Shown here piece by piece: positions 3,868 through 30,326 of a stretch of DNA of 35,021 bases. Position 1 is the first letter of the stretch; every line of letters begins with the position of its first letter. The stretch is from assembly GCF_000426225.1 (NCBI RefSeq), contig NZ_AUEY01000041.1, positions 1-35,021 on the forward strand, read 5' to 3'. Position numbers and translations under genes: made by a program. Below the pieces are notes generated by a model that saw nothing but the letters and a program-made list of their open reading frames with translations, searched no databases and had not been told where the DNA came from. The stretch is from Desulforegula conservatrix Mb1Pa (GTDB taxonomy: Bacteria > Desulfobacterota > Desulfobacteria > Desulfobacterales > Desulforegulaceae).

Positions 3868-3910
3868 AAGACTCCTCTGAACCTGAAATTATGACTTCTA
3901 CGCATCATAT

Positions 3911-3954: not shown

Positions 3955-3987
3955 CCAGTGCGATACAACGATCAGACAGAATCTGCC

Positions 3988-4440: not shown

Positions 4441-4470
4441 ACAAAACCTCCTTATAAAATATAAACTATT

Positions 4471-6157: not shown

Positions 6158-6203
6158 TTTTTTCACTGTACAGATATCTGAATTAAATCTCATAAATACA
6201 AAA

Positions 6204-6230
6204 ACGCCGGCAGAATTTTCTGCCGGCGTT
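6204..6230 (-). terminator. Strong terminator downstream of jag
   Basis: An 11-bp perfect stem ACGCCGGCAGA/TCTGCCGGCGT with a short loop is followed on the minus strand by TTTTTG. It lies between jag and mnmE, and its T tract reaches the first possible mnmE ATG. Confidence 0.9.
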
Positions 6231-6284
6231 CATATTAACCGATCTGCCCGAATATTACACAGGGACTCAGCAAAAAATATATTT

Positions 6285-7187
6285 TTAGCTTGCCTGTTCT
6301 GCCTTTTTAACCGGCCTTCTTCTTCGAGCCGAGTTTCTCTTTGGAAAAATTACGAGCCTTCTGTAATATCCTTCGCCCATGCTCTGGGTACGCACGCCGT
6401 GATCATCTTTCAAAGCAAGATGAACAATTCTTCTGTCGTGGGCTGTCATCTGACCTATTGTTGAAGGCTTTCCTGTTTTCTTAGCCTTTTCAGCGAGTCT
6501 CAAAGCAAGCCCTTCAAGATTCTTTTTTCTTGTTTCAAGATATCCGCCGACATCAACCTGAACCCTGACCCTTGCATCCGCATTCCTGTTGATGAGTTTA
6601 TCTATAAGATACTGAACTGCTTCAAGGGTCTGACCTCTCTTTCCTATCAAGAGAGAGGGATCGCCGCCTTCGATATTGTAAACAAGGCGATCCTTTTCTT
6701 TAACCACTCTTATCGAAGCATCTTCCGTAATTGCGTCTGCAATCTTCTGGAGCGCAATGGTACCCTTTTCAATAACTTCGTCTGAAAGTTCATTGACCGC
6801 CGCAGCCATGCGCTCATCCACATCATCTTCATCATCATCAAAGCCCTCGTATGCGGAATCATCATCTGATTCTGACGCAGTTTCAATGGGAAGGGCCTCT
6901 TTTGCGGCTATAGGTGCTTTTGACTTTTTGCCGTTGCTGAAAGCTTCATCCACAAGAGACTTTGCGCCTGCCTTTGCTTCATGGTGCTCATCGTCATGTT
7001 TGGCAGACGTTTCAGGCATAACAACTTCGATCTTGGCTTTTTTGACTCCCACTATCCCAAAAATTCCTGTGGAACCGTAAGAGATAATTTCATATTTCAG
7101 ACGGTCCTTTGATACTCTCAGTTCCTTGCAGGCATTTTCTATTGCTATATCAACAGATTTGCCTTCAAAAATCTTGTTTTCTTTCAT
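6285..7187 (-). CDS. jag: Jag/KhpB RNA-binding protein (Jag_N-KH-R3H)
   Basis: Jag (KhpB, SpoIIIJ-associated) binds RNA and is normally encoded beside yidC. The 300-residue protein has three parts. The N-terminal Jag_N domain (about 1-55) begins KIFEGKSVDIAIENACKEL. A long acidic linker (about 60-135) is rich in Asp, Glu and Ser. A KH domain with the loop GKRG (182-185) is followed by an R3H domain with R252 and H256 in DRRIVHLAL. The basic tail RNSARRRRPVKKAEQ probably helps RNA contact. It starts 17 bp after yidC with a GGAGG ribosome site, so the two are co-transcribed; a strong terminator follows. Confidence 0.95.
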   Translation of the reverse strand: MKENKIFEGKSVDIAIENACKELRVSKDRLKYEIISYGSTGIFGIVGVKKAKIEVVMPETSAKHDDEHHEAKAGAKSLVDEAFSNGKKSKAPIAAKEALPIETASESDDDSAYEGFDDDEDDVDERMAAAVNELSDEVIEKGTIALQKIADAITEDASIRVVKEKDRLVYNIEGGDPSLLIGKRGQTLEAVQYLIDKLINRNADARVRVQVDVGGYLETRKKNLEGLALRLAEKAKKTGKPSTIGQMTAHDRRIVHLALKDDHGVRTQSMGEGYYRRLVIFPKRNSARRRRPVKKAEQAS

Positions 7188-7204
7188 GGCTTTCGGCCTC
7201 CGGT

Positions 7205-8869: not shown

Positions 8870-8982
8870 TAAATTCTCCTGAGCTGAAATGCTCTAATAA
8901 TATCTTTGGTGCAGCCTGTCATGGCCTCTTAATAATTATAAATTCAGAATTTTTTCGAATTAGGGGCATACCATAAAATAAT

Positions 8983-9012
8983 AAAAGCCGCCCTGAACAG
9001 GTAACGGCTTTT
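8983..9012 (-). terminator. Terminator or attenuator between yidD and yidC
   Basis: The stem AAAAGCCG/CGGCTTTT encloses a nested CCTG/CAGG pairing and on the minus strand is followed by ATTATTTT. It lies just after the yidD stop and would end or attenuate rpmH-rnpA-yidD transcripts before yidC. Confidence 0.8.
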
Positions 9013-9020
9013 CTCGCATA

Positions 9021-9236
9021 TCATGGTACAGGATCAAATCCTCCTGGATGAAACGGATTGCATCTGCAAATGCGCTTTACGGCCAGCCAGGCTCCCTTTA
9101 TGAAGCCATAACGGGTGATGGCTTCAGCTGCGTACTCTGAACAGTTGGGATAAAACCTGCATGCAGGCCCAAGAAGCGGTGAAATAAAGTACTGATAGGC
9201 GCGTATCAAAAGGACGGCCGCATTCTTAATCAGCAT
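9021..9236 (-). CDS. yidD: Membrane protein insertion efficiency factor YidD
   Basis: YidD is a small inner-leaflet protein that helps YidC-dependent insertion. The 71-residue product contains the whole family core: an amphipathic start, then [32 protein letters not shown], and the C-terminal [15 protein letters not shown]. The cysteines in CRFYPNC and the PFHPGG turn are diagnostic. The start overlaps the end of rnpA by 11 bases, which is the usual arrangement and supports this start. Confidence 0.96.
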
Positions 9237-9582
9237 AGCTGTCTGATATTTTTCTGCATATTCTCATCAGGCACGCGTTGATATCCTCATGTGCGGCTTC
9301 GGCGGCTGAATGACGAGCAATAAAGTTAATATCCCATGCCCCTTTGACAAGCTGTCGGTTCAGTCGGTAAAATTCCCTGACAAATCTTCTTATCCTGTTC
9401 CTGATGACAGAGTTACCGACCCTCTTTGTAACAGTTATGCCGATTCTGGTCCTTCCCGTCTCAGAAGGAGTAAATACGGCAAACAGATGCCTGTCCTGGG
9501 CCTTCATACCCGAGCTTTTTATCCGCTCGAATTCTGATCTAATCAATAACCGGTCTTTTTTTTGAAATACTTTTTTAATCAC
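9226..9582 (-). CDS. rnpA: Ribonuclease P protein component
   Basis: RnpA binds the RNase P RNA and helps it remove 5' leaders from pre-tRNAs. The 118-residue product has the family length. The start [16 protein letters not shown], the strand [13 protein letters not shown] and the basic helix [17 protein letters not shown] (the RNR motif) form the RNA-binding surface. It is followed by an overlapping yidD and preceded, after 130 bp, by rpmH, as in most bacteria. The catalytic RNA gene (rnpB) is not in the window. Confidence 0.96.
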
Positions 9583-9595
9583 TTTTCAAGGCTGA

Positions 9596-9612
9596 GGCTG
9601 GCTATGCCAGCC
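9596..9612. other. Hairpin between rpmH and rnpA
   Basis: The perfect inverted repeat GGCTGGC-TAT-GCCAGCC lies 14 bp upstream of the rnpA start. It lacks a T run on either side, so it is more likely an mRNA processing or translational control hairpin than a terminator. Confidence 0.5.
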
Positions 9613-9624
9613 CTCCAAAGATCT

Positions 9625-9701
9625 TAATTCCATTGAAGTTCAGATGCGCAAAAACTGTCAGAAGCTCCAAGCGCCGCTAAAAAATAAACGCAATGGAATT
9701 A
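9625..9701. repeat. Inverted repeat in the rpmH-rnpA spacer
   Basis: TAATTCCATTG (9625-9635) and CAATGGAATTA (9691-9701) are perfect 11-bp inverted copies with 55 bp between them, filling the spacer just after the rpmH stop. They could pair in the transcript and close off a structured leader to rnpA. Confidence 0.6.
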
Positions 9702-9713
9702 GCCTGAACAGGA

Positions 9714-9848
9714 TTAAAGACCAAGACGCTTTCTGCCCTTGGCTCTTCTGCGCTTAATGATGTTACGTCCACCTACGGTTGCCATGCGGCTACGGAATCC
9801 GTGGGTCCTTGCTTTCTTGATTCTACTAGGCTGATAAGTTCTTTTCAT
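9714..9848 (-). CDS. rpmH: 50S ribosomal protein L34
   Basis: This short gene encodes 44 residues: it starts [19 protein letters not shown] and ends [13 protein letters not shown], the universal L34 pattern. Start and stop were read directly (ATG at 9848-9846, TAA at 9716-9714). It heads the block rpmH-rnpA-yidD and lies between the second MITE-like repeat and rnpA. No dnaA is found upstream in this genome; the next gene is RNase G. Confidence 0.97.
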
Positions 9849-9976
9849 TTTCTTTTTATCCTCACAACGTATTTATTTTTTCTAATACCCGGTCTATCCC
9901 GAATTTGTTCAGGCTCAAGCATTCTAAAAAAGCATAAAACATATTTGGTGTCAACCAGTTTGATGGTTTGATAGTC

Positions 9977-10094
9977 TCGCAAAAAGTCAAAAAAGGCGGC
10001 GACGTCATGCCGGACTTGATCCGGCATCCAGCATTTTTCAGACACTTCTGGATTCCGGACTACGCCGGAATGACGGGAATAGGACTTTTTGCGA
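9977..10094. repeat. MITE-like repeat, copy 2
   Basis: Perfect 12-bp terminal inverted repeats TCGCAAAAAGTC and GACTTTTTGCGA bound 118 bp. Inside, nested symmetry is well kept: ATGCCGGA/TCCGGCAT, and GTCATGCCGG against CCGGAATGAC. The same-length first copy is at 1412-1529. The element sits between the rng stop and the rpmH upstream region, and might supply or block regulatory signals there. Confidence 0.85.
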
Positions 10095-10134
10095 TCTTGT
10101 CATGATCTAGATCACCCTAAAAAAATCCTTAAAC

Positions 10135-11649
10135 TCATTCGAGCATGGATTCAATGATTTCATAATTCTCGATATGAAATACTTTTTCAGGGTAGATTTC
10201 CACCTTGAGACCCAGTTTTCTTTCCAGATTTGATACAACTTCACGTTCTTCCCCATGAAGCATCTCAGCCACATCAGGATGAACCCTTACAGTGAATTTT
10301 TTACCACGAAAATCACCGGAATGCTTTATAACATCCCTGTAAATCTTGTAGCAGATTGTCTGTCTTGAAAGATGATAGCCGCTTCCGTCGCAATATGAAC
10401 ATGGCTCACGAAGCATGCGGTTCAGGGATTTCCTGACCCGCTTCCTTGTCATCTGGATTATTCCCATATCAGACATGGGAAGAATATTGGTCTTATTCTT
10501 GTCGTTCTTCATGGCGTCTTTAACCGCAGCGTAGACTTTCTCCCTGTTAACAAGGCTCTCCATGTCTATGAAGTCAACGATTATAATTCCGCCAAGATTT
10601 CTAAGCCTTACCTGATATGCTATTTCTTTTACTGCCTCAAGGTTTGTTTTTAAAACAGTCTCCTCAAAGTTCTGCTTTCCGACATAGCGTCCTGTGTTTA
10701 CATCAATGGCCACAAGCGCTTCCGTGTGCTCAATGATTATATAACCACCTGATTTCAGCCATACTTTTCTTTTCATAGCCCTTGATATGTCGCCTTCAAG
10801 ATTGTAGGCCTCGAATATCGGCTCTTTGCCGTCATAATATTCAAGCTGAATGCTGTGCCCTGGAACGATTTTTTTCAGGAAAGAGTCGATCAGGTCATAT
10901 CCGGCCATTGAATCAACCACAACCCTGTCAGCCTCATGGGTCAGAAGGTCTCGCACGGCCCGGAGCGTTACAGTAAGATCCATGTGAAGAAGAGAAGGAG
11001 CCGGAGCCTTGCTGTATTTTTTCTGAATCTTGTCCCATATGGAATTCAGGAACCCCATCTCCCTTGCCATGATTTCTTCGTTAATTGCTTCGGCGGCTGT
11101 TCTGAAAATATAGCCAAGATTCTTTTCCCTCATTGAGATTATCATCTCCCTGAGTCTTGACCTTTCATCATCGTCCTCAATGCGTCTTGAAATACCTATA
11201 TGATCAACTGTAGGCATAAGAACAAGAAATCGGCCAGGAAGAGAAATATGGGTCGTAACCCTTGCTCCCTTGGTTTCTATAGGCGACTTTGCGACCTGAA
11301 CCATGATTTCCTGACCTTCCAAAAGAAGATCTTCAATCCTGCATTCCTTTGTTTTTGCGCATTTTGCTGCTTCCTCATCAAACGACAGTACTTCTTCACC
11401 CTGGTCATCAAAATTCGACCTCGGAGCTCCAAGCACATCATCAACGTAAAGAAAAGCGGCCTGCCTTAGTCCAATATCTACAAACGCAGCCTGCATTCCG
11501 GGAAGAACCCTCTGCACCCTGCCTTTGTAGATATTCCCGGCAATATTGGATTCATCGCCACGCTCTATGAAGAGCTCCGCGATTGTCCCGTTTTCAACCA
11601 GAGCGACCCTGGTCTCGGACTCAATGACATTTATGATGAGTTCTTTCAT
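10135..11649 (-). CDS. rng: Ribonuclease G (Rne/Rng family)
   Basis: RNase G is an endonuclease that matures 16S rRNA 5' ends and degrades mRNA. The 504-residue length fits RNase G, not the longer RNase E with its degradosome tail. An S1-like domain (about 35-130) contains NIYKGRVQRVLPGMQAAFVDIG, with an acidic insertion. The catalytic region has two acidic metal sites, in ALVAIDVNTGRYVG and IIIVDFIDM. The Zn-link CSYC occurs in REPCSYCDGSGYHLS. The upstream gene on the same strand is the radical SAM/DUF2344 protein, 96 bp away, so the two may share a transcript; this pairing is common in anaerobic delta-type bacteria. Confidence 0.94.
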   Translation of the reverse strand: MKELIINVIESETRVALVENGTIAELFIERGDESNIAGNIYKGRVQRVLPGMQAAFVDIGLRQAAFLYVDDVLGAPRSNFDDQGEEVLSFDEEAAKCAKTKECRIEDLLLEGQEIMVQVAKSPIETKGARVTTHISLPGRFLVLMPTVDHIGISRRIEDDDERSRLREMIISMREKNLGYIFRTAAEAINEEIMAREMGFLNSIWDKIQKKYSKAPAPSLLHMDLTVTLRAVRDLLTHEADRVVVDSMAGYDLIDSFLKKIVPGHSIQLEYYDGKEPIFEAYNLEGDISRAMKRKVWLKSGGYIIIEHTEALVAIDVNTGRYVGKQNFEETVLKTNLEAVKEIAYQVRLRNLGGIIIVDFIDMESLVNREKVYAAVKDAMKNDKNKTNILPMSDMGIIQMTRKRVRKSLNRMLREPCSYCDGSGYHLSRQTICYKIYRDVIKHSGDFRGKKFTVRVHPDVAEMLHGEEREVVSNLERKLGLKVEIYPEKVFHIENYEIIESMLE

Positions 11650-11745
11650 TGTTTGCCTCTGAGAATGACTCTCTGCACCTTAAGTAAATGTATATTTTAA
11701 AAATAAAAAATTTAGGAATCCTGTAATATCAGCCCAGCAATATGG

Positions 11746-14286
11746 TCATGCTGCGTCCGTGCCTGTCAAAAAAGGCCGCACCAGCGTTTTGATGATTCTC
11801 GAATATGTTGCAAGATCTCCATCTCTGCCGAATATGGCGCGCACCGCTTCAAAAGGACGAACAGATTCTCCCTGGGCGGATTTAAGGGTAATCTCGAGAT
11901 CTTTGTCAGTTATCAATTTTATTTTCCTGACAAGATCCCTCAGATCCATCTCCCTGACCATCCCTTTTTTACTTGTTTTACTAAACGGAAAGGATTCGGC
12001 AGACATGAAAGACTCAAGAGACTCGGCGGAGAAACATGAAGAAGGCATATGGATTCTATAAGTTTCCTCAACGCAGGATATTTTTTCCTTTTCATCTGAA
12101 AGCTCTGCCGAAAGTATTACAAGCCCCTCGGGCAGCCCCTGATTGATGAGCTCCGGAACATTTGAAAGATCATGGTTTTCAGGCAGATAAAGATAGAAAT
12201 GCTCGCAAAGACTCTCAAGACCAATGGGAAGCGGATCGTTAAAAGAAAGCTTTGGAATCGGATGAAAACCCTCTGAATAGCGAATAGGCAGTCTTGCCTT
12301 TCTAAGAGCTCTGGAAATATTGTTGGACATCTCTATGTGGCCGATGAATCTCGCATCTCCAGACTTGGAATATTCAAGACGTATTTTTTTGTATAAAATA
12401 TGGGAGTCATCGCCGGAACAATCTGAATTTTGAATTTCCAAGGGCTTGTCAAAAATAACCGGCATTACAGTCTCAAAATCACATACTCCGCAGCCCGTGC
12501 ATTCTCCATTTCTGCAGTCATGGGTAAGATCGCCAGTAAAAGCCCTGGAGAGCTCATCTTTAAGAAAGTTCTTGCTTACCCTCGAATCTATATGATCCCA
12601 GGGAAGAGGTTCATCGAGGCTTCTTTTTCTTGTTGTGAAAAATGCGGGATCTATGCCATTTTCGTCTAAAGCCTCCTGCCAGAGATCAAGCCTGAAATGT
12701 TCTGACCAGCCGTCAAGCCTGCAACCTTTTTCCCACGCTGAAACAATCACCTTGGCAAGCCTTCTGTCCCCCCTTGCAAAAACGCCCTCAAGAAGGCTGA
12801 GCTTCGGATCCTGCCATTTCACCCCTACTCCCGGAAGCCTCATTATGGCTGACCTGATCTTACCAATTTTTTCAAGGGATTCGGCCTGTGTTATCTGGCT
12901 TTCCCACTGAAAAGGGACATTAGGCTTTGGTATGAAGGTTGTGATGCTTACATGTATGGAATCCTGTCTTGACCTGCCTTTTTTCAGCCTGCGCAGACGA
13001 TCCGCAAGGTCAATTATTCCCTGAATATCATCATCTGTTTCAGAAGGCAGGCCAATCATGAAATATAGCTTTATGAGCTGCCAGCCCATTTCAAAGGCAG
13101 AATTTACGGTGTCAGAGATTTCATCTTCGGTCAGATTCTTGTTAATCGCATCCCTGAGACGCTGGGTTCCAGCTTCGGGGGCAATTGTAAATCCTGTTTT
13201 TCTAACCTTTTTCACTTCTTCCATGAGCTGCTGATTCAGTTTTCCGGCTCTTATGGAAGGAAATGAAACAGCTATCCTGTCGGAAGCATATTTTTTCATA
13301 AGACCGGTCATGAGATCTGAAAGGCAGCTATAGTCTCCCGTACTCAGGGAAAGAAGGGAAAGATCATCGTAACCTGTGGATCTAAGGCTTTTTTCTGTTA
13401 TCTCAAATAGTTTATCCAGAGACCTTTCCCTTACCGGTCTGTAGATCATACCAGCCTGGCAGAACCTGCATCCCCTTGAACAGCCCCTTGCAATCTCAAG
13501 CCTCAACCTGTCATGCACGGGTCTTCCAAGCGGAACAACCGGGGTATCAGGAAACGGAGCATTTTCGAGATCAGGACATACTGCCCTTGTAACCTTTGTA
13601 TAATTTTCATAAAGCGGAACAAGAGACTGAAATCCTTCGGAAGAATACTCAGGCGTGAAATATGACGGAATATATATACCTTCAATTTCAGACCATTTTT
13701 TCAGAATCTCTTTTTTGGAAGCTCCTGATTTTTTAAGTTCAAGCCAGACTTCGGATATCTTGAGTATTACATCTTCTCCATCACCTATGACAATTGCGTC
13801 AAAAAAATCAGCAACAGGTTCGGGATTGCATGTACAAGGCCCGCCAGCAATAATAATGGGCATGGATTCGTCCCTGTCTGATGCCTTGAACGGAATGCCT
13901 GCGAGATGAAGTGTGGTCAGAACATTTGTATAATTCAATTCATAAAGAAGACTGAAACCGATTATATCGAAATCTCTTAGAGGCCTTCTGCTTTCAAGAG
14001 CAGCAAGGCTGTGGCCGGTCTCCTTGAGCTTTTTTTCAAAGTCAGGGGCTGGTGTAAAAATTCGGTCAGCCATTATATTCTTATGACTGTTCAAAACATG
14101 GTAAAGAATCTGAAGTCCGAAATGGGAAGTGCCGATTTCATATAAATCAGGAAATGCCAGGGCAAATCTTAAGTCAACCGAATCAAAGGGTTTTCTCCTC
14201 GCATTGAGTTCCTTGCCTATGTAGTGGCTTGGCTTGTCGATATGCGGCAGGATGTCTTGAATTATGTCTGTGCTCATGCTATCCAT
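11746..14286 (-). CDS. B12-binding/radical SAM/DUF2344 protein (TIGR03960-type)
   Basis: The 846-residue protein is a known but functionally obscure fusion. The N-terminal part (about 35-200) resembles a B12-binding-like Rossmann domain. The radical SAM core begins near 260, with cluster ligands C269, C273 and C276 in ARGCSRGCRFCQAG. A second Cys-rich spot (CRNGECTGCGVC, near 600-612) could bind another metal or cluster. The C-terminal DUF2344 domain starts about 635 with IRLEYSKSGDARFIGHIEM and includes RYSEGFHPIPKLSF. The ORF has a second ATG four codons in. Linkage to RNase G is conserved in related genomes, and a role in RNA or tRNA modification is often supposed but is inference. Confidence 0.9.
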   Translation of the reverse strand: MDSMSTDIIQDILPHIDKPSHYIGKELNARRKPFDSVDLRFALAFPDLYEIGTSHFGLQILYHVLNSHKNIMADRIFTPAPDFEKKLKETGHSLAALESRRPLRDFDIIGFSLLYELNYTNVLTTLHLAGIPFKASDRDESMPIIIAGGPCTCNPEPVADFFDAIVIGDGEDVILKISEVWLELKKSGASKKEILKKWSEIEGIYIPSYFTPEYSSEGFQSLVPLYENYTKVTRAVCPDLENAPFPDTPVVPLGRPVHDRLRLEIARGCSRGCRFCQAGMIYRPVRERSLDKLFEITEKSLRSTGYDDLSLLSLSTGDYSCLSDLMTGLMKKYASDRIAVSFPSIRAGKLNQQLMEEVKKVRKTGFTIAPEAGTQRLRDAINKNLTEDEISDTVNSAFEMGWQLIKLYFMIGLPSETDDDIQGIIDLADRLRRLKKGRSRQDSIHVSITTFIPKPNVPFQWESQITQAESLEKIGKIRSAIMRLPGVGVKWQDPKLSLLEGVFARGDRRLAKVIVSAWEKGCRLDGWSEHFRLDLWQEALDENGIDPAFFTTRKRSLDEPLPWDHIDSRVSKNFLKDELSRAFTGDLTHDCRNGECTGCGVCDFETVMPVIFDKPLEIQNSDCSGDDSHILYKKIRLEYSKSGDARFIGHIEMSNNISRALRKARLPIRYSEGFHPIPKLSFNDPLPIGLESLCEHFYLYLPENHDLSNVPELINQGLPEGLVILSAELSDEKEKISCVEETYRIHMPSSCFSAESLESFMSAESFPFSKTSKKGMVREMDLRDLVRKIKLITDKDLEITLKSAQGESVRPFEAVRAIFGRDGDLATYSRIIKTLVRPFLTGTDAA

Positions 14287-19293: not shown

Positions 19294-19956
19294 ATGCTTT
19301 CAAAAGTTTATAGCTGTGCACTTCACGGGGTTGACGGAAAAACGATAGAAGTAGAGATAGACATAAGTCACGGACTTCCCGCATATAACACGGTCGGACT
19401 TCCGGAAGCAGCTGTAAGGGAAAGCAGGGAAAGGGTCCGGTCAGCCCTGAAAAATTCTGGCTACAGATTCCCGGACGACAGAATAACAGTAAATCTCGCT
19501 CCCGCTGACATCAGGAAAGAAGGAACAGGATTTGATCTTCCAATTGCCCTTGGGATTCTCCTTGCCACAGGAATCATACGAGAAAAAAATCTTGATGAAT
19601 ACATGGTGATGGGAGAACTGTCCCTCGATGGAAGCGTAAAACCAATCAAGGGCGCGCTTTCAATGACCGCCGCAGCCAAGGACAAAAAATTCAGGGGCGT
19701 TGTAGTGCCTTTAGCAAACGCAAAGGAAGCGGCTGTAGTGGAAGGACTTGATATCATCCCTGTGAGTTTTCTACACGAAGTTGTTGATCATTTCAACGGA
19801 GACCAGATGATCAGCCCGGCAGAAGAAATATTCACCTCCACTTCTATCCGGGAGCAGGAGATGGATCTTGATTTTTCAGAAATCATGGGACAGGAAAACG
19901 CCAGAAGGGCCGTAGAGATTGCTGCTGCCGGGAATCACAATATAATCATATTGTAG
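19294..19956 (+). pseudogene. comM: ComM/YifB-type Mg-chelatase-like ATPase, 5' half only
   Basis: The first 220 residues match the N-terminal Lon-protease-like domain of YifB/ComM, with CALHGVDGKTIEVEIDISHGLPAYNTVGLP-type sequence and RVRSALKNSGYRFPD, then VNLAPADIRKEGTGFDLPIALG. The AAA region begins with FSEIMGQENARRAVEIAAAG. The frame stops at HNIIIL, exactly where GPPGSGKT (Walker A) should follow, so the ATPase core is gone; complete members have about 500 residues. ComM is a helicase aiding branch migration in transformation. The upstream GGAGA site is intact. The break marks the start of an AT-rich accessory region, so I read this as gene disruption by an insertion; the 3' half is not in the window. 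Confidence 0.9.
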
Positions 19957-20861
19957 TATATTTATAAATATTAATATTATCAATAATATCAAGGCTTTAT
20001 TGTTTTTAGGGCGATTCTTGTATAACCAATCTATCCAGCAAATTATGAATACAACTTCTTGTGTTATCTCTAATTGTTAGAGTGGCCACATTTATATAAG
20101 ACATGATAAAAATGTACATCTTTTTCATTGTACTTATTCTATCGGCTTATTTGATTCCCTGATCTCCCGTTTTTTTCAGATCAATCGGTACACATGCCTG
20201 AATAAAAAAGCCGGTTTTTTATCGCTAAATCATGATTCAGGAATAATATCTGGGGCCTGTTCAGCAAGCCGCTTGCCATAATCTTCTATGCTAATTGTAA
20301 CAATGCGGGTGTGGAAGGCATTTGCGCTGGTCGAAATGAAGGTTGTAAAAAGCAGGTTTTATTTATGTACGCTCTCAGCTTAATCTCCGGCTTTTGGATG
20401 TAAAAGCATATATGTATTACAGTTCATTATTTGAACAGCACAAAACCGCAAGCTCGTGTTTTCTCAGTAGGGTATTATTATTACTGTTACCGTCCCCAGC
20501 TTTTATGACCTTGATTCTGAATTGAAAGATGAAAATATGACAGGGCGTTTATGAGGATTCATTTCTGATTATCTGGATGCGATTGAACTTAAATTATCTT
20601 GATCGGATAAAAACTGGGGCATTAAAAAAACAGAGGGGACTAGGTAACTTGTTATTTTTACCTGCGAGACAAAAATTCTATCTAGCATATATAAACCTCT
20701 CCCATTCCAATATTCTATATTTATACATACACCTCTATATCCTACACAATATCCATAGTATACTATTATAACTAATGGCTAATGAGCCTATGATCATGCA
20801 TTATTCGTAATTATAACGAGGTGATCCGCCGGATTTCAAGGACTGCATTTTTGACGGTTTT
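19957..20861. other. Gene-free left part of the accessory region
   Basis: About 900 bp without a believable gene. The sequence turns very AT-rich at the comM break, with overlapping palindromes near 19963-19998 (an ATATTTATAAATAT-type block, then AATATTAT/ATAATAT). At 20197-20241 a nested structure is formed by CCTGAAT/ATTCAGG enclosing AAAAAA-GCCGG-TTTTTT. A hairpin GCAAGC-C-GCTTGC is at 20264-20276. The region could hold an element end, an origin, an untranslated RNA or decayed sequence; I cannot decide. Confidence 0.5.
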
Positions 20862-22187
20862 CTACCCGGTTTTTATAGGGCAAAAATACAGCTTTTTATC
20901 AGGTGAAATTGATGCAGATATTTTCTGATAACAGTCGGCCATAACAGCCTGAAGGACATCTCTGTTTTTTTCTTCAACGATAAAACTGTCATGGATGCAT
21001 AGGCAAGCTTGCTTCATATTTGCAAAATGAAGCATGACTTCAAGGGCTATCTGCGAGTCAAGTCTCATAAGCTTCAAGCCTTTACCGGAACAAAAAAAAT
21101 GCTCTATCGGCTGATGGGCTTTTTTAAAGATATCCAAAATCCCTTTTGCAGTAACTCCATATTTTTGTAGTGTTTCATGAAGGTAATGGTTCTTGAATAA
21201 TTCATAATTGCATGCCTTGACCATCTCTATTTCATTTTTGCAATTGAGCAGCGCGAGCAGTGCTATTTTTGCAAAGCCTCTTACATCCTTATAGTTGCAC
21301 TGCGGTATATTATTATAGTTGCTCATTATGGCTTCATAAGGGTCTTCTGTTAACTGTAACCCTACTTCAGCATAAAGCAGATGCGGGTGCAGGCCTGAAT
21401 AGTCAAGTTCAACGGTCTTATTGCCATTTATTCTTATATTTTGCCGATCTTCTGCCCTTAGCTGCTGATATCCATTAGCACCCTTAGTGTAAAAACGGCC
21501 TCCATAATCCAATGTATCATTAAATACCCGATGAAGGTCTGTGCTTAATTTAACATCTTTGTTTATGCTCTCGTCCAGATATGAAACAATAAAGCGCTTG
21601 TTGACACTATTGATATGCCTGACGTCCTTTTCAAGACTTATGGAGATTTTGGATTTGCTGAAACTTATATCTTTTTTATCCTTACTGTCCCGCATAACGA
21701 TCAGAGGGCTTGCATCAGTAATCAAAAAGCCTTGCGGCGATGCAAGGTAAAAAAGCTCTTGCTGTAGTTTTTCTGTGGCCCAGATTCTTGACCTGAAGCT
21801 GCTTTTACCTTCATAATCAAAAAAACCTTTTTTCAGCTCAATATACCCTTCATCAAGAAGCGTTCTTATTATAAAGATTGTAAATCTGGTCAGAGCCGTA
21901 TTGTGGTCGTAAAAGTTCTGATTCATATCGATTATTAAAGGCTTTTCTTTTGATGAGCTGAAAAGGTTTGCCGCTAGTATGAAAAAATCGCTCAGCTTGT
22001 TTTTTATCTTTGTGATCTTTTTTTGGTATTTTGGCAGTACTATGCTGTTAAAAAAGTCTTCTGTCCTTTTCTTTGCCTCTCCAGCCGGTAGAATATAAGG
22101 ATCAATCTCTACAGCCTTGTAATACAGATTATAATTATCTGCCTTACCGGCACGAGATTGAATGTACTGCGCTACTTTAGATTTCAT
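20862..22187 (-). CDS. Compact family A polymerase-like palm-domain protein
   Basis: The 441-residue product has no standard name I know, but three spaced motifs match the family A DNA polymerase/T7-type polymerase palm. Motif A is VELDYSGLHPHLLY (D262, compare DYSQIELR). Motif B is RGFAK (R303 and K307, the R-xxx-K of the O helix). Motif C is CIHDSF (H399, D400, S401; compare VHDE of Pol I and IHDSF of T7 RNA polymerase). The N-terminal 190 residues match nothing obvious and show no 3'-5' exonuclease motif. It is divergent from two DUF3102-like genes and near a Rep-like protein and a recombinase, which suggests replication of a mobile element. Alternatives are template-independent synthesis or a defence polymerase. 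The start has only a weak ribosome site. Confidence 0.65.
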   Translation of the reverse strand: MKSKVAQYIQSRAGKADNYNLYYKAVEIDPYILPAGEAKKRTEDFFNSIVLPKYQKKITKIKNKLSDFFILAANLFSSSKEKPLIIDMNQNFYDHNTALTRFTIFIIRTLLDEGYIELKKGFFDYEGKSSFRSRIWATEKLQQELFYLASPQGFLITDASPLIVMRDSKDKKDISFSKSKISISLEKDVRHINSVNKRFIVSYLDESINKDVKLSTDLHRVFNDTLDYGGRFYTKGANGYQQLRAEDRQNIRINGNKTVELDYSGLHPHLLYAEVGLQLTEDPYEAIMSNYNNIPQCNYKDVRGFAKIALLALLNCKNEIEMVKACNYELFKNHYLHETLQKYGVTAKGILDIFKKAHQPIEHFFCSGKGLKLMRLDSQIALEVMLHFANMKQACLCIHDSFIVEEKNRDVLQAVMADCYQKISASISPDKKLYFCPIKTG

Positions 22188-22597
22188 TTTTTTGAGGTCT
22201 TTAAGGTTAGGTAAAATTTGATGATGCCCTGAAAATCTTATTCTGATATCGTCTTTTTTACAACCCCGTCTGCACTCATATTTTAAGGGCCGTTGTGGGT
22301 TTGTAATATATAAAGGCTACGAGATAAAAAACTGAGAAAAGGGCTGTCACAACAGCCATCTTCATGTCTGATTTCTTTGCCAAGGTATAGCTCGTTTGCT
22401 ATAAATTCAAGATGATCTAACAAAAACTCCTTTTATTTTGAATATTTAGCTTGAAGATACGTTGCATTCCGAGGTATAAAGCTAAAGTTTGCGTTGCTCT
22501 CATCATCATAAATTAATAAGCTGTTTATATTCAATGCAGCATAGAAAAATAGAACCATTCTAAAAATAGAAATTCCCGAATAAGTATAGAGGCTCGT
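22188..22597. other. Divergent regulatory gap between polymerase-like and DUF3102-like genes
   Basis: About 410 bp with no convincing gene. A small hairpin GGCTGT-CACA-ACAGCC is at 22342-22357. The stretch must carry promoters for the divergent genes on either side. The 80-residue minus-strand frame at 22433-22675 overlaps the DUF3102-like start and lacks a ribosome site. Confidence 0.45.
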
Positions 22598-23440
22598 ATG
22601 GCAGATTATACACCTAAACATTTTGGAGATAGAAAAGCTATACTCAATTTGAAGGAATTTCGTGAAACCAATCAACCTCGTACTCTTCCCTATGCACTAA
22701 ATAAGCATCGAATATCGAGATTATCAGCAGAAAAAAGCGGTGGGCCAGAGGGTTATCTTAGTTCAATTGCCTCAGAGTTTAAACTTAGAGAATATATTTA
22801 CAAAGAAAATATATTTTTTATTGGTGATCTTTTATGTGAAGCTCGTGATGTTATAAAAACAAGTAAAGAAATTACTTTTAGTTTCAAAGAATGGGTCGAA
22901 AAAACGTGTGATTTTAGCTATGAGACGGCACTCAATTTTTGTCGTGTATACAGCCTATGCTCAGAAAGGACTATTAATGTTCTTCTTATTAAAAGGACTA
23001 TTCTGTTTGAAATATGCAGCGATAAATTTCCTGAAGATTTCAGAGATTATCTCCTTAGCTCAGAAAAAACTTTAGGCATGTCCATAAAAGGCTTCAAAAA
23101 ACTATATAAAACTTTTGAAGAGAAAGGATGGGCTGGGTTTGAGGCTGAGCTTGAAAACTATGAAGCTGCAAATCGTTTGATTGAACATATTCAAAATTAT
23201 AAACATAAAATTGAAAAAGCCATATCAATTCTAAGAAATGAGAGAACTGAATTTCTTAATGGTATAATAATACAAAAAATTGCAAACAAAATACCGTTAA
23301 ACGATCATGAGCAACGCCTGTATAATGTGTATCAAGCATTTGAGACAAGCATAAGGCAGCTTCATCAACTATCGGATGGGTATTTTGATGATGAACATAA
23401 AAATATTTTAGATCAATTTATTGATAATTTTGAAGCATAA
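22598..23440 (+). CDS. DUF3102-like protein, first of a tandem pair
   Basis: The 280-residue protein shares a core (about 50-130) with the next gene. That core runs through LSSIASEFKLREYIYKENIF, FIGDLLCEARDV, FKEWVEKTCDFSYETALNF and CRVYSLC. The pattern (small helical segment, GxxLxEAR, W(V/L), CxFSxxTAxNF) matches DUF3102, a helical family common on phages and plasmids, sometimes with a DNA-partition-like role. The remainder is coiled-coil-like and rich in Lys and Glu. I place it with moderate certainty. It has AT-rich codon use unlike the core genes, and its start is preceded by a weak AGAGG. Confidence 0.6.
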   Translation: MADYTPKHFGDRKAILNLKEFRETNQPRTLPYALNKHRISRLSAEKSGGPEGYLSSIASEFKLREYIYKENIFFIGDLLCEARDVIKTSKEITFSFKEWVEKTCDFSYETALNFCRVYSLCSERTINVLLIKRTILFEICSDKFPEDFRDYLLSSEKTLGMSIKGFKKLYKTFEEKGWAGFEAELENYEAANRLIEHIQNYKHKIEKAISILRNERTEFLNGIIIQKIANKIPLNDHEQRLYNVYQAFETSIRQLHQLSDGYFDDEHKNILDQFIDNFEA

Positions 23441-23574
23441 TTTATTTTTTTGAATTGATAAGTATACAGGCATAAATACTTATAACTAAATTGTTCTTTA
23501 AACTAATCAAATACAAAAATACGGCTTTTAAAAAAAATATTGTTTTTTATATACTTATTACAAGGGAGATTCAA

Positions 23575-24570
23575 ATGACCATCCCCCCAATCCCTCATCA
23601 TAAGAGTAAGTTTTTAAAATACGGCGGTGATCCGTGTGAAAATTTGTACCGCTATGCAGAAGATAGAAAACGTAAAAGGTTTGAAGTCGGTAGGTCACAA
23701 GGTGATCAAAAGTACCTTGATAGCTTAGCTGATGAAATAAAAATAAGAACAAAAATTACACAGCAAGAGATTTTTTTTATTGGTGAAATGCTTACAGAAG
23801 CACGTCAGGTTGTAAAATCAATAAAAGGGCTAAGCTTCAAGGTTTGGGTACAAAACACATTCGACTTTGGTTATCATACGGCAATAAATTTTTGTAATGT
23901 TTATGCCGTTTGCATGGGACGCATACAAGAAATTGCCAATATCCCGATCAGCGTTTTATACAATATCAGCCAGCCATCTTTTTCAGATGAACTCAGGGAT
24001 TTCCTTTTTAATTCAGGAGCAATTGAAAAATTATCCCTTTCTAAGGTAAAAGAGCTGCGCGATGAATATCAAAAGAATGGTATCAATGCTATTCGTGCTA
24101 AATTTTCAAGCATTGGTGAAGCTGCTGTTGTCTACCAACAGGTTAAACATGTACAAACCAGGGCAGAAGAAGCTGTATATAAGTTAAGCATGATTCAACG
24201 CAGCCTTCAAAATGAAGGTTTTGATTTTGATGCAACTCAAACGCTACAAAGCAAAGACAAGCACTACGAAAAGGGGAATATATACCAAAAAAAAATATTC
24301 GATACCTTTACTGCCTGTATCGATATGATCAATCTTGCAATAAATAGCATAGACATCAAAGTAGCTATTGTTCAGGATGGTACCGTATCCACAGATATAA
24401 TACTACATGATTCTATAAATACAGATGGTCAGCCTCCTGCTAAAGCAGATAATGGAGATACTGATGCTGATGCTGTTGTCGAGCCTGAAAATCCTGTCGG
24501 TGATAGCGATGTGGTTGGCAATGGAGATGTTATCGAGGCTCAGTTTACAGAGACTGATAAAGGTAAATAA
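23575..24570 (+). CDS. DUF3102-like protein, second of a tandem pair
   Basis: This is a paralogue of the preceding gene. Conserved pieces are LDSLADEIKIRTKITQQEIF, FIGEMLTEARQVVKS, FKVWVQNTFDFGYHTAIN and FCNVYAVC. The two share the order and spacing of the core but diverge elsewhere. I start at the ATG at 23575 (332 residues) because AGGGAGA sits before it; the longer frame from 23491 adds an AT-rich, lysine-heavy extension without a ribosome site. The C-terminus (about 285-332) is an acidic, low-complexity tail with repeated Asp, Ala and Val. The gap to the first copy is 134 bp, so they may be co-transcribed. The function is unknown. Confidence 0.65.
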   Translation: MTIPPIPHHKSKFLKYGGDPCENLYRYAEDRKRKRFEVGRSQGDQKYLDSLADEIKIRTKITQQEIFFIGEMLTEARQVVKSIKGLSFKVWVQNTFDFGYHTAINFCNVYAVCMGRIQEIANIPISVLYNISQPSFSDELRDFLFNSGAIEKLSLSKVKELRDEYQKNGINAIRAKFSSIGEAAVVYQQVKHVQTRAEEAVYKLSMIQRSLQNEGFDFDATQTLQSKDKHYEKGNIYQKKIFDTFTACIDMINLAINSIDIKVAIVQDGTVSTDIILHDSINTDGQPPAKADNGDTDADAVVEPENPVGDSDVVGNGDVIEAQFTETDKGK

Positions 24571-25746: not shown

Positions 25747-26412
25747 TTAATTACATCCCCCCCACATTCCGTTAATCTGTGCCTGTAAATCCTCCTGTGT
25801 AATATCGGCATATATTTGCGTGGTTGTAATTGACGAATGTCCGAGCTGCTTCTGTACTGCTCTCAAATCCTTTTTCTTCCGGTAAAGTTCAGTTGCGTAT
25901 GAATGCCTAAGGGAATGAACTGACTTACCTTTTTCATAAATGCCGAGCTGCTTCAGGTACTTCTTCAAAAGCTGCTGTATAGCCTGCCTTGTCCACGGCC
26001 CACGCTGGCCTATAAATATAAAGGAGTCTTCAGATACCTCTTCCTCATGCAGTTGCTTCCAACTCAAAAACCTTTTCAGGTGCTTTTTCAAAGCTTCTGA
26101 AATCTGAACCGTCCTTGATCGGCTGCCTTTTCCGTTTCGTATAAAAATTGCACTCTCGCCATACCCGGCCATGATATCTCCGCACCTGAGGTTTGCGGCC
26201 TCACTGACCCTGATACCTGTGCTTGTTATCAGGTCAACGGCCATCCATTCTTTTATTGCTGTCACATTATCTTTGCCTGATGCAAGCAGAGCCTTTTCCA
26301 TTACAGTTCGCCTCAGCAACTTTATCTGCTGGGTATTAAAATATTTGATACCATCAATGTTTCTGATCTGCCTTTCCGTTGACCTGTTATTGTTGCTTAT
26401 GGTAGCTGCCAT
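25747..26412 (-). CDS. Short tyrosine recombinase (phage integrase family)
   Basis: Tyrosine recombinases cut and rejoin DNA at specific sites. Numbered from the chosen start, the set is complete: R68 (TGIRVSEAANL), K95 (NGKGSRSR), H166 and R169 in HSLRHSYATEL, H192 (LGHSS) and nucleophile Y201 (TQIYADI). I start at the ATG at 26412 because GGAGG lies five bases before it, giving 221 residues; the longer frame from 26463 has no ribosome site and reads through the repeats. At 221 residues it is much shorter than XerC/D or phage integrases (about 300+), with a minimal N-terminal DNA-binding part. Three copies of a 12-bp motif lie directly upstream. Confidence 0.9.
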   Translation of the reverse strand: MAATISNNNRSTERQIRNIDGIKYFNTQQIKLLRRTVMEKALLASGKDNVTAIKEWMAVDLITSTGIRVSEAANLRCGDIMAGYGESAIFIRNGKGSRSRTVQISEALKKHLKRFLSWKQLHEEEVSEDSFIFIGQRGPWTRQAIQQLLKKYLKQLGIYEKGKSVHSLRHSYATELYRKKKDLRAVQKQLGHSSITTTQIYADITQEDLQAQINGMWGGCN

Positions 26413-26430
26413 TTTTACCTCCGAAATAAA

Positions 26431-26529
26431 ATGTATTGAGTTTTCGACATGTTTTAAAACCATGAATTGCGGCTTGACCAGTGCCAGACCCTAAAAACTC
26501 AATACATACTGCATAATATGTATTGAGTT
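26431..26529. repeat. Three copies of ATGTATTGAGTT upstream of the recombinase
   Basis: The motif occurs at 26431-26442 (direct, extended by TT), at 26496-26507 (inverted, extended by AA) and at 26518-26529 (direct). The last two face each other across a 10-bp spacer (26508-26517), the form of a recombinase core site or an operator pair. The copies begin 18 bp upstream of the recombinase ATG. Confidence 0.75.
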
Positions 26530-26562: not shown

Positions 26563-27378
26563 TCAAATTACATCCGATACAATCTTGCCATTTCTGAAAA
26601 CAATCATCTGGCCGGGCTGAAAAGTTGTCCACTCCTCATCGGTCAGTTTCTCTGTTGCTATTATGTACCCAGCCTCATTATCGTCCTTTACAATATTCAA
26701 ATCGATTTCCAGATCGCTGTCTCTCAGAATGACCTCCCTGAATGGACGGCTTCGCAAATATTTATATAAATTTTTGAGGGGATTTTTCGTTTTTTTTGCT
26801 CGATAGCAAAATAAATTTTCAGAATCTGAAAAAATGCAGTTAAAAGCCCCGTCACCGATAGTATTTATGGACTGAAGGATCTGATGAATCGCCTTGAACT
26901 GTCTCTGAGTGTATGAGTTCTTCTTACCTTGAGGTCTGAGACCCTGTGCTTTTATTTCTGTAAGCAAGATGCAAAAGGCTTTTTCACTGTCAGTCTGACC
27001 GAGAGGTAAATAGCTCAGCCCTTCATTTATGCTTCTCAGCCCATGCAAAGAGCCATTATGCGCAAAAGTCCATTCCCGCTTATTGTAAACTCTGCTGAAC
27101 GGATGCGTATTCGAGTGCGAGTTGTTGCCTATTGAAGCTCTGCGGATGTGTCCAATAAAGGTGTTTGATTTGATCTGGTCATAATTAAGAAGAAATGATG
27201 CAAGCTGACTGTCACATGCTGCAATAGGCTCTTTAAAAATAACAGCGGATTTGCTGCTTTCAGGGTAATAAGCCAGCCCCCATCCATCGCAATGATAATC
27301 TGAATTTGATTTCAAGCCTGCAAATGCAAATCTCGGTCTTATCGGCTTATTAAAACTCATGCCAAGAAGTTCACACAT
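26563..27378 (-). CDS. Class II glutamine amidotransferase (YafJ-like)
   Basis: The 271-residue protein starts MCELLGMSFNKPI, so Cys2 would be the N-terminal nucleophile after methionine removal, as in the GATase II fold. Further family signatures are CDGWGLAYYP (about 30-40), GHIRRASIGNNSHSNTHPF and WTFAHNGSLHGLR. The domain releases ammonia from glutamine; in YafJ-type proteins the acceptor is unknown because no synthetase domain is attached. The ribosome site AAGGAG is good. It stands on the same strand as the recombinase and the gamma-glutamylcyclotransferase-like gene, which also acts on gamma-glutamyl compounds. Cargo status is inferred. Confidence 0.88.
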   Translation of the reverse strand: MCELLGMSFNKPIRPRFAFAGLKSNSDYHCDGWGLAYYPESSKSAVIFKEPIAACDSQLASFLLNYDQIKSNTFIGHIRRASIGNNSHSNTHPFSRVYNKREWTFAHNGSLHGLRSINEGLSYLPLGQTDSEKAFCILLTEIKAQGLRPQGKKNSYTQRQFKAIHQILQSINTIGDGAFNCIFSDSENLFCYRAKKTKNPLKNLYKYLRSRPFREVILRDSDLEIDLNIVKDDNEAGYIIATEKLTDEEWTTFQPGQMIVFRNGKIVSDVI

Positions 27379-27528: not shown

Positions 27529-27894
27529 TTACCGGATTTCATATATGCCGCTTTGGATTAAAAGACCTCGCTTTTCAGGGTAAAAGTATATCCATGCTGC
27601 GATTGCTTCTGCTGCTTCTCTTTCTTCCAAGCTGACTTTGATTGTTTCCCGTTTGTAGCAGTCCGGGTGTCCTTCAAGGCGATCCAGTTTTGCAAGGGTT
27701 GCTTGATTGACCACGTAAAGTTCACCATGAATGTGTGAAATGGATTCGTCCTTAATTACAAATGGTATCCCAGCTACATACAGGGCATACTTTTCTTGGG
27801 TTATGGCATTACCCTTGAATTCTGCATTTGCAAGCAGTCCATGATTGCCGAATCCCTTTTTAAGAGTGCCGTATACAAAAAGCATATGTCTCAT
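27529..27894 (-). CDS. Gamma-glutamylcyclotransferase-fold (AIG2/YtfP-like) protein
   Basis: The 121-residue product begins MRHMLFVYGTLKKGFGNHGLL, the characteristic YGTLKxG motif of the GGCT/AIG2 fold. The catalytic-type glutamate lies in LDRLEGHPDCYKRE. The fold covers gamma-glutamylcyclotransferases, gamma-glutamylamine cyclotransferases and YtfP-like proteins of unknown substrate. Length (about 120) is typical for single-domain members. AGAGG precedes the start. The gene sits 150 bp from the YafJ-like amidotransferase, so both may handle gamma-glutamyl or glutamine substrates, though they are not visibly overlapping in one operon. Confidence 0.88.
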   Translation of the reverse strand: MRHMLFVYGTLKKGFGNHGLLANAEFKGNAITQEKYALYVAGIPFVIKDESISHIHGELYVVNQATLAKLDRLEGHPDCYKRETIKVSLEEREAAEAIAAWIYFYPEKRGLLIQSGIYEIR

Positions 27895-28292: not shown

Positions 28293-30326
28293 TCATGGGA
28301 GTATTCTAATTGCGCGTAATTTCCATAGATAAATGAGTTCGTCAAAAAGTTCTTTATCGTACATCTCGAAATTCGTATCTTTATCAAGTAATAATTCTCC
28401 AACTGTAGGAGCTCTATCCGAAAAAGCGATGGCTTTAAAAAGCTTCTCTGAAATGTTAACACTCGCTTGGTCAAAGATGAGAGACGCAGTGGCCTCTATA
28501 GCAAAACGAATTTGCTTTTGACCTTCAACTGTCATCGTGCATCGTTTAACGAGCTTCTTGCTGGCCGACAGTTGCACCTTAAGCGATAAGATACATTGTG
28601 GATTAGAGATAAAATCATTCTTTGTCACTAAGTAATTACCAACTATCATTAGATCCAGTCCAGTAGTTAATAAGCAAACTACAGCATCGTCTATTGTATC
28701 TACTATCGGTTCCACACTATTGTTAAATGATGTATTCAAAATAGCAGGAATACCTGTTATTGAAAAAAAATCTTGTATGAGTTCCCAGTATAGGCGATTC
28801 TGCTTTTGAGATACAGTCTGAATGCGAGCAGAACCATTAACATGCGTAACCGCACCTAAAATTTCCCTATACTCTTTCCGAACTGGGAGAGTAAATGTCA
28901 TGAAAGATAAATCAGCTTTACATTTTGGGGTATCGATAATAGTTGTTAGCTTGTCTTCTATAATTGATGGCGCAAAAGGTCGAAATGATTCTCGATCTTT
29001 GACCATTTTGTTAATACGCGTCCAATTGTTAATAGGCCTTGGATCAGCAATGATACTTCTATTTCCAAGAGATCTGGGCCCAAATTCGGATCGCCCTTGA
29101 ACCCAACCAACTACTTCTCCTTGTGAAATTAGTTGTGCTGCAACGGCCGCAGGCTCTGTTATTGGGCTCATTTCAAGCACTGGCCCCCATGCTTCAAGAG
29201 CAGTCCTAATGTCCATATCGCTACCGATATCACGACCCAAAAAAACGTGGGGCATCTGTCGCCGACAAGACTGGTCGCCCTTCATTTCGTAGGCTGCGAT
29301 TGCCGCTCCTATAGCACCTCCAGCATCGTGAGATGCAGGCTGTACATATATTTTTTCGAATAAGTCACTACTGAGAAGCTTTCCATTTAAAGTAGAATTA
29401 TGTGCCACACCACCAGCTAAGCAAAGGTTTGACTTTCCGGTTTTTTTACGAAAATGGGTTATGACATGAAATACAATGGTCTCAAGAGCGTTTTGCAATC
29501 CTGCTGCAAAGTCTTTATGTACTTCATTGAAGGGTTCTCCTGCTCGCCGCGCCTGCTTGACCAGCCCCTCATCATACAGTAGTCCCCATCGTTCTTCTAT
29601 AGGTAATAATTCGAAGTTGCCCTCAGGAAGGAGTTGATACATTTTTTTGAATATACCATTGAAACGATTTGGATCACCATATGGGGCCAAGCCCATTGCT
29701 TTGTATTCATCAAATCGCTTGTAACCAAGGATTCGAATAAAATCTCTATATAATGTTCCTAACGATTGCTCGATAGAATGTTGTCTAAGAATACTAATAC
29801 CAATTGAGTCACCCACAGCAATACACCCTGAAAGACTATCTCCAAAACCATCATTCGAAACGACAAGCGCATCAGGAAAGCCAGAAGTTGAAAAGGCGCT
29901 CCATAAATGTGCTATATGGTGATTACAGAAGAATAGTTTATTAGAAACATCCGCAGAAAATTCGCGTTCAAAGAGCTCACAAATCATGTCTCTGACAGAG
30001 AAACTGCGCTGTTCTGGATATTCAAGAAAATGGTTCACAGAAGGTAGCCCTGCATCACACGGAAACACTTTCCGATTTTGCTCTATAAAATTCATAGCAA
30101 TGACATCAATGTCATCAAATGATAGCCCAGTAATCTTTAAACAATTATAAATGGCGTGAGCCGGGAAGTAATTAGAATGCTTTATGCGATTAAGGCGTTC
30201 TTCCTCGAAAGCGCAGATTAGATTTCCATCTCGTATAATAACTGCAGAGCCATCATGCGTTGACCACCCAGGAGCTGCATCCTGGAACTCCCTGATGATA
30301 CCACCATGCCATCCTAAAACAATCAT
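28293..30326 (-). CDS. NodU/CmcH-family carbamoyltransferase
   Basis: These enzymes make carbamoyl adenylate from carbamoyl phosphate and ATP in a Kae1-like domain and transfer the carbamoyl group to an acceptor hydroxyl of a sugar or natural product. The 677-residue chain starts with WSTHDGSAVIIRDGNLICAFEEERLNR, the classical family start. It continues with FCNHHIAHLWSAF, VVSNDGFGDS, LCLAGGVAHNSTLNGKL and FGPRSLGNRSIIADPR. The carbamoyl-transfer part ends near 565 (MIVGNYLVTKND). A C-terminal extension of about 110 residues is not obviously part of the usual domain. A TAGGAG site precedes the ATG. It is downstream of a DapA-like gene on the same strand. Confidence 0.92.
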   Translation of the reverse strand: MIVLGWHGGIIREFQDAAPGWSTHDGSAVIIRDGNLICAFEEERLNRIKHSNYFPAHAIYNCLKITGLSFDDIDVIAMNFIEQNRKVFPCDAGLPSVNHFLEYPEQRSFSVRDMICELFEREFSADVSNKLFFCNHHIAHLWSAFSTSGFPDALVVSNDGFGDSLSGCIAVGDSIGISILRQHSIEQSLGTLYRDFIRILGYKRFDEYKAMGLAPYGDPNRFNGIFKKMYQLLPEGNFELLPIEERWGLLYDEGLVKQARRAGEPFNEVHKDFAAGLQNALETIVFHVITHFRKKTGKSNLCLAGGVAHNSTLNGKLLSSDLFEKIYVQPASHDAGGAIGAAIAAYEMKGDQSCRRQMPHVFLGRDIGSDMDIRTALEAWGPVLEMSPITEPAAVAAQLISQGEVVGWVQGRSEFGPRSLGNRSIIADPRPINNWTRINKMVKDRESFRPFAPSIIEDKLTTIIDTPKCKADLSFMTFTLPVRKEYREILGAVTHVNGSARIQTVSQKQNRLYWELIQDFFSITGIPAILNTSFNNSVEPIVDTIDDAVVCLLTTGLDLMIVGNYLVTKNDFISNPQCILSLKVQLSASKKLVKRCTMTVEGQKQIRFAIEATASLIFDQASVNISEKLFKAIAFSDRAPTVGELLLDKDTNFEMYDKELFDELIYLWKLRAIRILP

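Follow-up and report, generated by a model that had tools for sequence, protein, structure and literature searches.

What does a compact protein carrying the motifs of a family A polymerase do in a bacterial genome, and whose DNA might it copy? The question is raised by a gene with an ATG start at 20862-22187 on the reverse strand of a 35,021-nt contig of Desulforegula conservatrix Mb1Pa (NZ_AUEY01000041.1; here, C41), the whole of which constitutes the window analyzed here. The initial annotation had recognized family A motifs in this gene and envisaged a mobile-element replicase, a T7-like RNA polymerase offshoot or something new. Our results indicate that the 441-residue product is probably a polymerase of the TV-Pol family encoded by an integrated mobile element, most likely the predicted primase-polymerase of that element.

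Motifs and conservation

We found D262, R303/K307 and H399-D400-S401 at the residues originally given, with motifs A, B and C in the right order within 441 residues. Motif A (D262 to H267) is encoded at 21387-21404, in a register obtained by hhalign with Escherichia coli PolA; motif B (R303-K307 to N315) at 21243-21281, with the RxxxK+8 spacing checked on PolA and T7 RNA polymerase (RNAP); and motif C (H399-D400-S401) at 20985-20993, where it aligns with T7 RNAP. A GGRFY stretch including R231 (21489-21503; all four features are on the reverse strand) aligns with the TGRLS stretch of PolA, and the counterparts of R231 by motif are R668 of E. coli PolA and R425 of T7 RNAP, in which GRVY starts at 424.

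The only family recognized with the single protein was PHROG 4756 (function not assigned), which matches residues 39-423 with an E-value of 1.1e-66. In searches up to E 10, no Pfam, NCBIfam, PADLOC or PDB sequence match was obtained, in agreement with the originally noted unmatched N-terminus, and neither the DNA_pol_A model (PF00476) nor the RNA_pol model (PF00940) was matched; the latter is matched weakly by 3 of 61 family members (best E 0.011).

These members were collected by scanning with alignment A2, which yielded 33 bacterial-genome loci and 61 viral-contig loci. ORFs were read from 88 of the 94 loci (six viral ones were omitted); 84 were complete and 69 remained after removal of near-duplicates. 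Alignment A4 consists of the window protein and 60 of the 69, two (L037 and L089) having been dropped as over-long and seven more for input size. Ten residues, R231, R248, E260, D262, Y284, K307, H399, D400, S401 and M416, are identical in all 61 sequences, R303, H267, D282 and D377 are each identical in 60, and N315 is conserved in 56. With D262, K307 and the H399-D400-S401 triad invariant and R303 changed only once, the motifs are not due to chance.

Predicted fold and the RNA polymerase likeness

An AlphaFold2 model built on A4 (mean pLDDT 89.9, pTM 0.81) was compared with known structures. Foldseek returned 112 PDB matches at E 0.001 or better (best E 2.9e-7), and the 50 listed among them are all family A DNA polymerases. 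In VIA-align, the same best Z score of 14.4 was obtained for apicoplast DNA polymerase (rmsd 4.7 over 250) and yeast mitochondrial RNAP (rmsd 3.6 over 260), followed by KlenTaq (Z 13.7, rmsd 4.6 over 236) and T7 RNAP (Z 13.4, rmsd 3.6 over 256). The modelled fold matches family A DNA polymerases and T7/mitochondrial RNAPs alike. The protein has the palm/fingers fold and ordered motifs A, B and C in common with DNA polymerase I and T7-like RNAPs. A chance match of the motifs is ruled out by the model, its fold matches and the conservation across 61 members taken together.

Profile comparisons gave a mixed picture, in which the half around motif A pairs with E. coli PolA and the half around motif C with T7 RNAP, both weakly. 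Against Pol I, hhalign gave a probability of 23 percent (E 9.2e-4), and against T7 RNAP one of 80 percent (E 1.5e-5); the test is insensitive, since the control alignment of Pol I with T7 RNAP gave a probability of 0.05. With the A4 profile, a Taq polymerase chain was matched no better than E 1.7.

These results bear on an alternative that we regard as unlikely, namely, that the protein is an RNA primase or small RNA polymerase that joins NTPs, either for primers or for transcription of element or phage genes. The T7-like GRFY and HDSF sequences, the alignment of the motif C half with T7 RNAP, a best rmsd of 3.6 to RNAPs (256-260 residues) compared with 4.0-5.3 to DNA polymerases, and the missing Glu sugar gate of Pol I are all consistent with such an enzyme. 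However, the longer alignments in the other RNAP rows have rmsd values as high as 8.9, the positions at which the window family has His and Asn are Gly and Tyr in T7 RNAP, motif A and the motif spacing resemble Pol I, and CCPol, discussed below, prefers dNTPs (PMC7581432). The motif A and motif C aspartates are 138 residues apart in the window protein, compared with 177 in E. coli Pol I and 275 in T7 RNAP. Hence, of the suggested T7-like offshoot, the likeness itself is real (GRFY, HDSF and the equal best Z), but the aspartate spacing differs and motif A aligns with Pol I. A T7-like RNA polymerase in the strict sense is ruled out by the absent Pfam match and the motif spacing.

Probable assignment to the TV-Pol family

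The TV-Pols were described by Iyer, Abhiman and Aravind in 2008 as predicted prim-pols from mobile elements of diverse bacteria (PMC2579912). They have 400-600 residues, a palm with two Asp, an invariant Arg in a hairpin, a thumb formed by a two-helix coiled coil, and fingers that are inserted after the first palm strand and carry a conserved Asp and RxxxK; one subset has an N-terminal globular domain and another a fused or adjacent D5-like helicase, and the genes are found near resolvases, lambda-type integrases and restriction-modification genes (PMC2579912). In the window family, we identified the palm Asp pair (D262 and D400, 61/61), the invariant hairpin Arg (R231, 61/61), the fingers residues (D282 and R303, 60/61 each; K307, 61/61) and recombinases of mobile elements nearby (25 of 34 loci, including the integrase at 25747-26463 of the window). 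Motif C is HDS in the family, in contrast to HDE in Pol I. In the AlphaFold2 model, R231 starts a strand (231-234) preceded by another (218-223), and one clear helix (180-196) lies ahead of this hairpin, a candidate thumb helix for which no coiled-coil partner was identified in the model. By its motifs and neighbourhood, the family appears to fit TV-Pol; having been described in 2008 (PMC2579912), it is not the new family that had been considered, and the window gene is ordinary in kind.

Cyanophage Ma-LMM01 offers a possible link to the published family. A search of this phage with A4 gave no match at E 1; with filters off, a short match scored best (0.46) and gp030 next (E 0.6), and hhalign with gp030 gave E 0.034 and a probability of 1.5. 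The gp030 gene, which lies beside transposases, shares with the window family the residues R, Q and R, the D with His at +5, and the K with Asn at +8. We infer that gp030 is the TV-Pol member published in PMC2579912, which names this cyanophage; the text of that paper makes no mention of members from ICP1-type phages.

The N-terminal part is a candidate winged helix. This domain (residues 30-158; 21714-22100, reverse strand), modelled alone by AlphaFold2 (pLDDT 85.6), consists of helices and a beta wing. Its profile had 26 matches among PDB sequences (best E 0.0087), of which 19 are named transcription regulators, of kinds (PadR, MarR, SarA and ArsR) that we take to be winged helices. In structure comparison, the best Foldseek match of the domain had an E-value of 0.25 and its highest Z was 6.6; the 50 VIA-align rows include many ribosome entries (chain not named) as well as LmrR, MepR and a kinetochore subunit. 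The domain is conserved and is perhaps a winged helix; the modelled helices and beta wing differ from the all-helical N-terminal domain predicted for TV-Pols in PMC2579912.

Comparison with CCPol and the question of priming

CCPol is itself a TV-Pol, and together with MP, as encoded on SCCmec, it is a proven dNTP primase-polymerase; without MP it performs primer extension only, and it prefers dNTPs (PMC7581432). According to Bebel 2020, no TV-Pol other than CCPol was known to be biochemically characterized (PMC7581432), and in Rice 2023 the CCPol branch is derived from Pol I (PMC10061031). CCPol-MP and PolA-SSB primases resemble the system considered here in the family A palm, in their elements being moved mostly by large serine recombinases, and in the proposed role in element copying. 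Pipolins offer a further likeness, being integrative elements equipped with a recombinase and a primer-independent polymerase (piPolB) of their own; they differ in that the polymerase belongs to family B.

CCPol has no N-terminal domain (PMC10061031) and depends on an OB-fold protein encoded separately, whereas the window protein is one longer chain. In an alternative that we consider unlikely, the protein would be a DNA polymerase that requires a primer and serves to fill gaps or synthesize the second strand, incapable of priming. CCPol lacking MP is a precedent for a TV-Pol that extends primers only (PMC7581432), and no MP-like partner is evident next to the window gene: upstream on this strand, the sole small ORF listed is one of 80 aa with a TTG start (22433-22675), which is 245 bp off, overlaps the next gene and has no PHROG match. 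On the other side, the chain carries the conserved N-terminal domain that CCPol lacks (PMC10061031), and Pfam recognizes no exonuclease in the window protein.

Under the primase-polymerase reading that we prefer, the enzyme would act when the element excises or enters as single-stranded DNA. The N-terminal domain would grip the template, and the palm would join the first nucleotides without a primer by a two-metal mechanism (D262 and D400), after which the primer would be extended by the window protein or passed to host polymerases. The element could then be copied independently of the chromosome. Functions that SCCmec divides between the two chains of its enzyme, CCPol and the OB-fold protein MP, would here be united in one.

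A distinct nucleotide pocket

H267 occupies the sugar-gate position, corresponding to E710 of PolA and G542 of T7 RNAP (by motif register, with both references checked). By the same kind of register, L311 corresponds to PolA F762 and T7 M635, and N315 to the O-helix Tyr, Y766 of PolA and Y639 of T7 RNAP. In this superfamily, sugar choice is governed by T7 Y639 and PolA Y766, among other residues. It is likewise governed by PolA E710 and F762, which CCPol keeps as its E174 and F225 (PMC7581432), whereas the window protein has H267, L311 and N315. These CCPol-type gate residues are not a feature of the window family, which has His at position 267 in 60 of 61 members and, at position 311, Leu in 33, Asn in 23, Met in three, and Phe and Gln in one each. 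Judging by the alignment, the active site looks somewhat unusual in that the conserved nucleotide pocket differs from that of the studied relative, CCPol. Since H267 and N315 stand in place of residues kept or discussed in connection with Pol I, what was found for CCPol may not apply here. With a different conserved pocket, one purified member would reveal whether dNTPs, NTPs or both are preferred, and also whether a single chain suffices for priming.

A mobile element inserted in comM

The 5' half of comM, encoding an Mg chelatase-like ATPase, is located at 19294-19956 of the window (forward strand; PF13541 and positions 1-27 of PF01078), where it is cut by the element. The 3' part (PF01078 positions 23-206) was found on contig C3 (L115, 138-3137; L116), where it adjoins a large serine integrase (phrog_95, E 8.9e-76), with genes of the contractile-tail type (baseplate, tail fibre, PAAR and tape measure) and a DNA methyltransferase farther along. 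The left end of the element (19942-19964) overlaps the end of the comM fragment and matches the inverted right end on C3 at 22 of 23 bases; the two ends, ATAATCATATTGTAGTATATTTA and, reverse-complemented, ATAATCATGTTGTAGTATATTTA, together form an inverted repeat. Given this match, the C41 and C3 junctions look like two ends of one insertion or of an insertion stack. The TV-Pol gene sits in a mobile element inserted in comM, between comM halves on two contigs.

The gene may belong with the tail genes or with another element, one mobilized by the tyrosine recombinase (Phage_integrase) encoded at 25747-26463 (reverse strand; PF00589, E 1.6e-33; phrog_216, E 1e-38). Two related ORFs of 280 and 359 aa, which match each other with a phmmer E-value of 1.1e-31, occupy 22598-24570 (forward strand), and the first of them has weak phmmer relatives near TV-Pol genes (L011, E 3.6e-5; L013, E 4.8e-5).

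No capsid protein or replication helicase was recognized among the 23 C3 proteins run, and no replicative helicase or initiator among these and 12 further C41 proteins from the two contig pieces of the element; nor was a D5-like helicase recognized among the element proteins run from C41 and C3. Iteron-like repeats are not clearly enriched close to the gene, with 44 arrays in 282 kb compared with 106 in 954 kb elsewhere, so that the 13-bp repeat seen in L080 does not characterize the family. Between 19900 and 35021 of the window, there is a single weak repeat array (19967-19992), at the comM junction and away from the gene.

Other genes of the window were also noted. Relatives of a glutamine amidotransferase-like gene (26563-27378) and a gamma-glutamyl cyclotransferase gene (27529-27894) adjoin the integrase of the Desulfogranum locus L013. 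A Nol-like carbamoyltransferase gene (28293-30326; phrog_1601, E 2.1e-97) lies between the comM junction and the contig end, and the product of 33549-34481 matches phrog_4299 (function not assigned; E 2.1e-71) and, weakly, DprA (E 8.7e-6).

Neighbourhoods in other genomes

The bacterial loci belong to two Desulfobulbales genera, many Alphaproteobacteria, Nitrosomonas and other MAGs, including a spirochaete and Ignavibacteriae. The occurrence is patchy: among 58 genomes of the same order, source included, only the source genome had a match.

A recombinase was detected in the fetched flanks of 25 of the 34 bacterial loci (33 plus the window), with tyrosine recombinases at 23, resolvases at 11 and large serine recombinases at four; the profiles were built from these same loci, which makes the comparison internal to them. 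The nine loci in which no recombinase was flagged are L012, L017, L018, L019, L027, L029, L039, L040 and L041, four of these stretches being shorter than 11 kb; at L017, an ORF that the profile missed clusters with the flagged recombinase of L038. Recombinases account for 18 of 129 genes within two places of the TV-Pol gene and for 21 of 323 farther away (Fisher one-sided p 0.011). Nearby recombinases may, on the other hand, be a mark of any genomic island. The start of the TV-Pol gene shares 4 bases with a resolvase ORF in L020 and L024 and 8 bases with a tyrosine recombinase ORF in L035.

The comM arrangement recurs. The comM gene of a Syntrophaceae MAG (L016) is interrupted at the equivalent position by 7.8 kb that carry a TV-Pol along with a resolvase and a large serine integrase, and in L022, a 3' part of comM, a serine integrase and a TV-Pol are lined up; the comM parts of both loci were judged by clustering and translation. 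A mobile-element replicase with a family A palm, as first proposed, is supported by structure, conservation and neighbourhood.

Several individual loci are of separate interest. In L011, an AAA_25 ATPase gene (6642-7868; Pfam E 1.2e-21) ends 27 bp before the TV-Pol start; its product also matches phage primase/helicase families and is a possible helicase partner. L080 contains a tandem array (1-11114; periods of 4659 and 3347 bp) whose units each encode a TV-Pol together with a tyrosine recombinase; this may be a very small circular element that was assembled, or became integrated, in concatemeric form. In a Desulfovibrio MAG (L032), a 1058-residue ORF (9605-12781) lies downstream of the TV-Pol gene, and we take its opening residues to resemble Cas9.

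TV-Pols in phages

By tblastn, relatives were found in 288 phage records (144 Vibrio, 115 Rheinheimera, 14 Aeromonas, 6 Pseudoalteromonas, 5 Shewanella and 4 others) and in 3 plasmid records, none of them with a single place covering 80 percent of the query; the viral_contigs set searched with the window protein alone gave no result. Among the 40 phage records listed, the gene is annotated as hypothetical in 38, as 'DNA polymerase' in one, and has no annotation in one. The assignment also suggests a function for PHROG 4756, a family called hypothetical in nearly every phage record listed. For a gene of a known kind, two points sustain interest: the pocket unlike that of CCPol, and the presence in phages, often in several copies, under hypothetical labels among the records listed.

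ORF100 (gp100) of ICP1 is a member of the family and the one copy in this phage, which also encodes DNA polymerase I (Gp58) and a helicase-primase (Gp57) (PMC9040626). Of 31 phage or viral records picked for carrying the gene, a separate DNA_pol_A match is present in 17 (16 above the cut-off) and missing from 14, some of which are fragments; two or more TV-Pol genes are present in 13, as counted by reading with split matches merged. In three cases of two-copy contigs, the copies are 42-52 percent identical, and one TV-Pol copy of Vibrio phage 193E37-1 holds two internal stops. Given a separate PolA or several TV-Pols in one phage, the TV-Pol there is not the sole polymerase but an extra.

That phages carry the gene alongside their own PolA would also suit a reading that we deem very unlikely, in which the gene is island cargo with an accessory or defence function and not the copying enzyme of the element. 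Methyltransferase or restriction-type genes adjoin it in L006 and, by similarity, in L026 and L030, a DNA methylase gene adjoins it in Vibrio phage qdvp001, and a defence role is named as a possibility for PolA-SSB primases in Rice 2023 (PMC10061031). However, PADLOC gave no match, and in the 7.8-kb comM element of L016, which has its recombinases, no other polymerase or initiator was recognized among the ORFs searched, all but one of 107 aa.

Returning to the primase-polymerase reading, a more elaborate version of it can be offered tentatively, as a possibility that we rate below even chances. The family would comprise single-chain prim-pols with a third sugar gate of superfamily A, formed by His and Asn (H267/N315) as compared with Glu/Tyr in Pol I and Gly/Tyr in T7 RNAP; the N-terminal winged helix would replace the OB-fold SSB in cis; and the one to three diverged copies that phages such as the ICP1 group have alongside a PolA of their own would serve origin-specific priming or act against competing elements.

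Two further observations concern viral copies. On the viral contig L069, a GIY-YIG gene (3549-4289, E 1.8e-13) abuts the TV-Pol gene, and spread by homing is possible. In gp030 of Ma-LMM01 (L149, 1247-2767), motif C seems to be HNS, compared with HDS elsewhere, and this copy is perhaps inactive.
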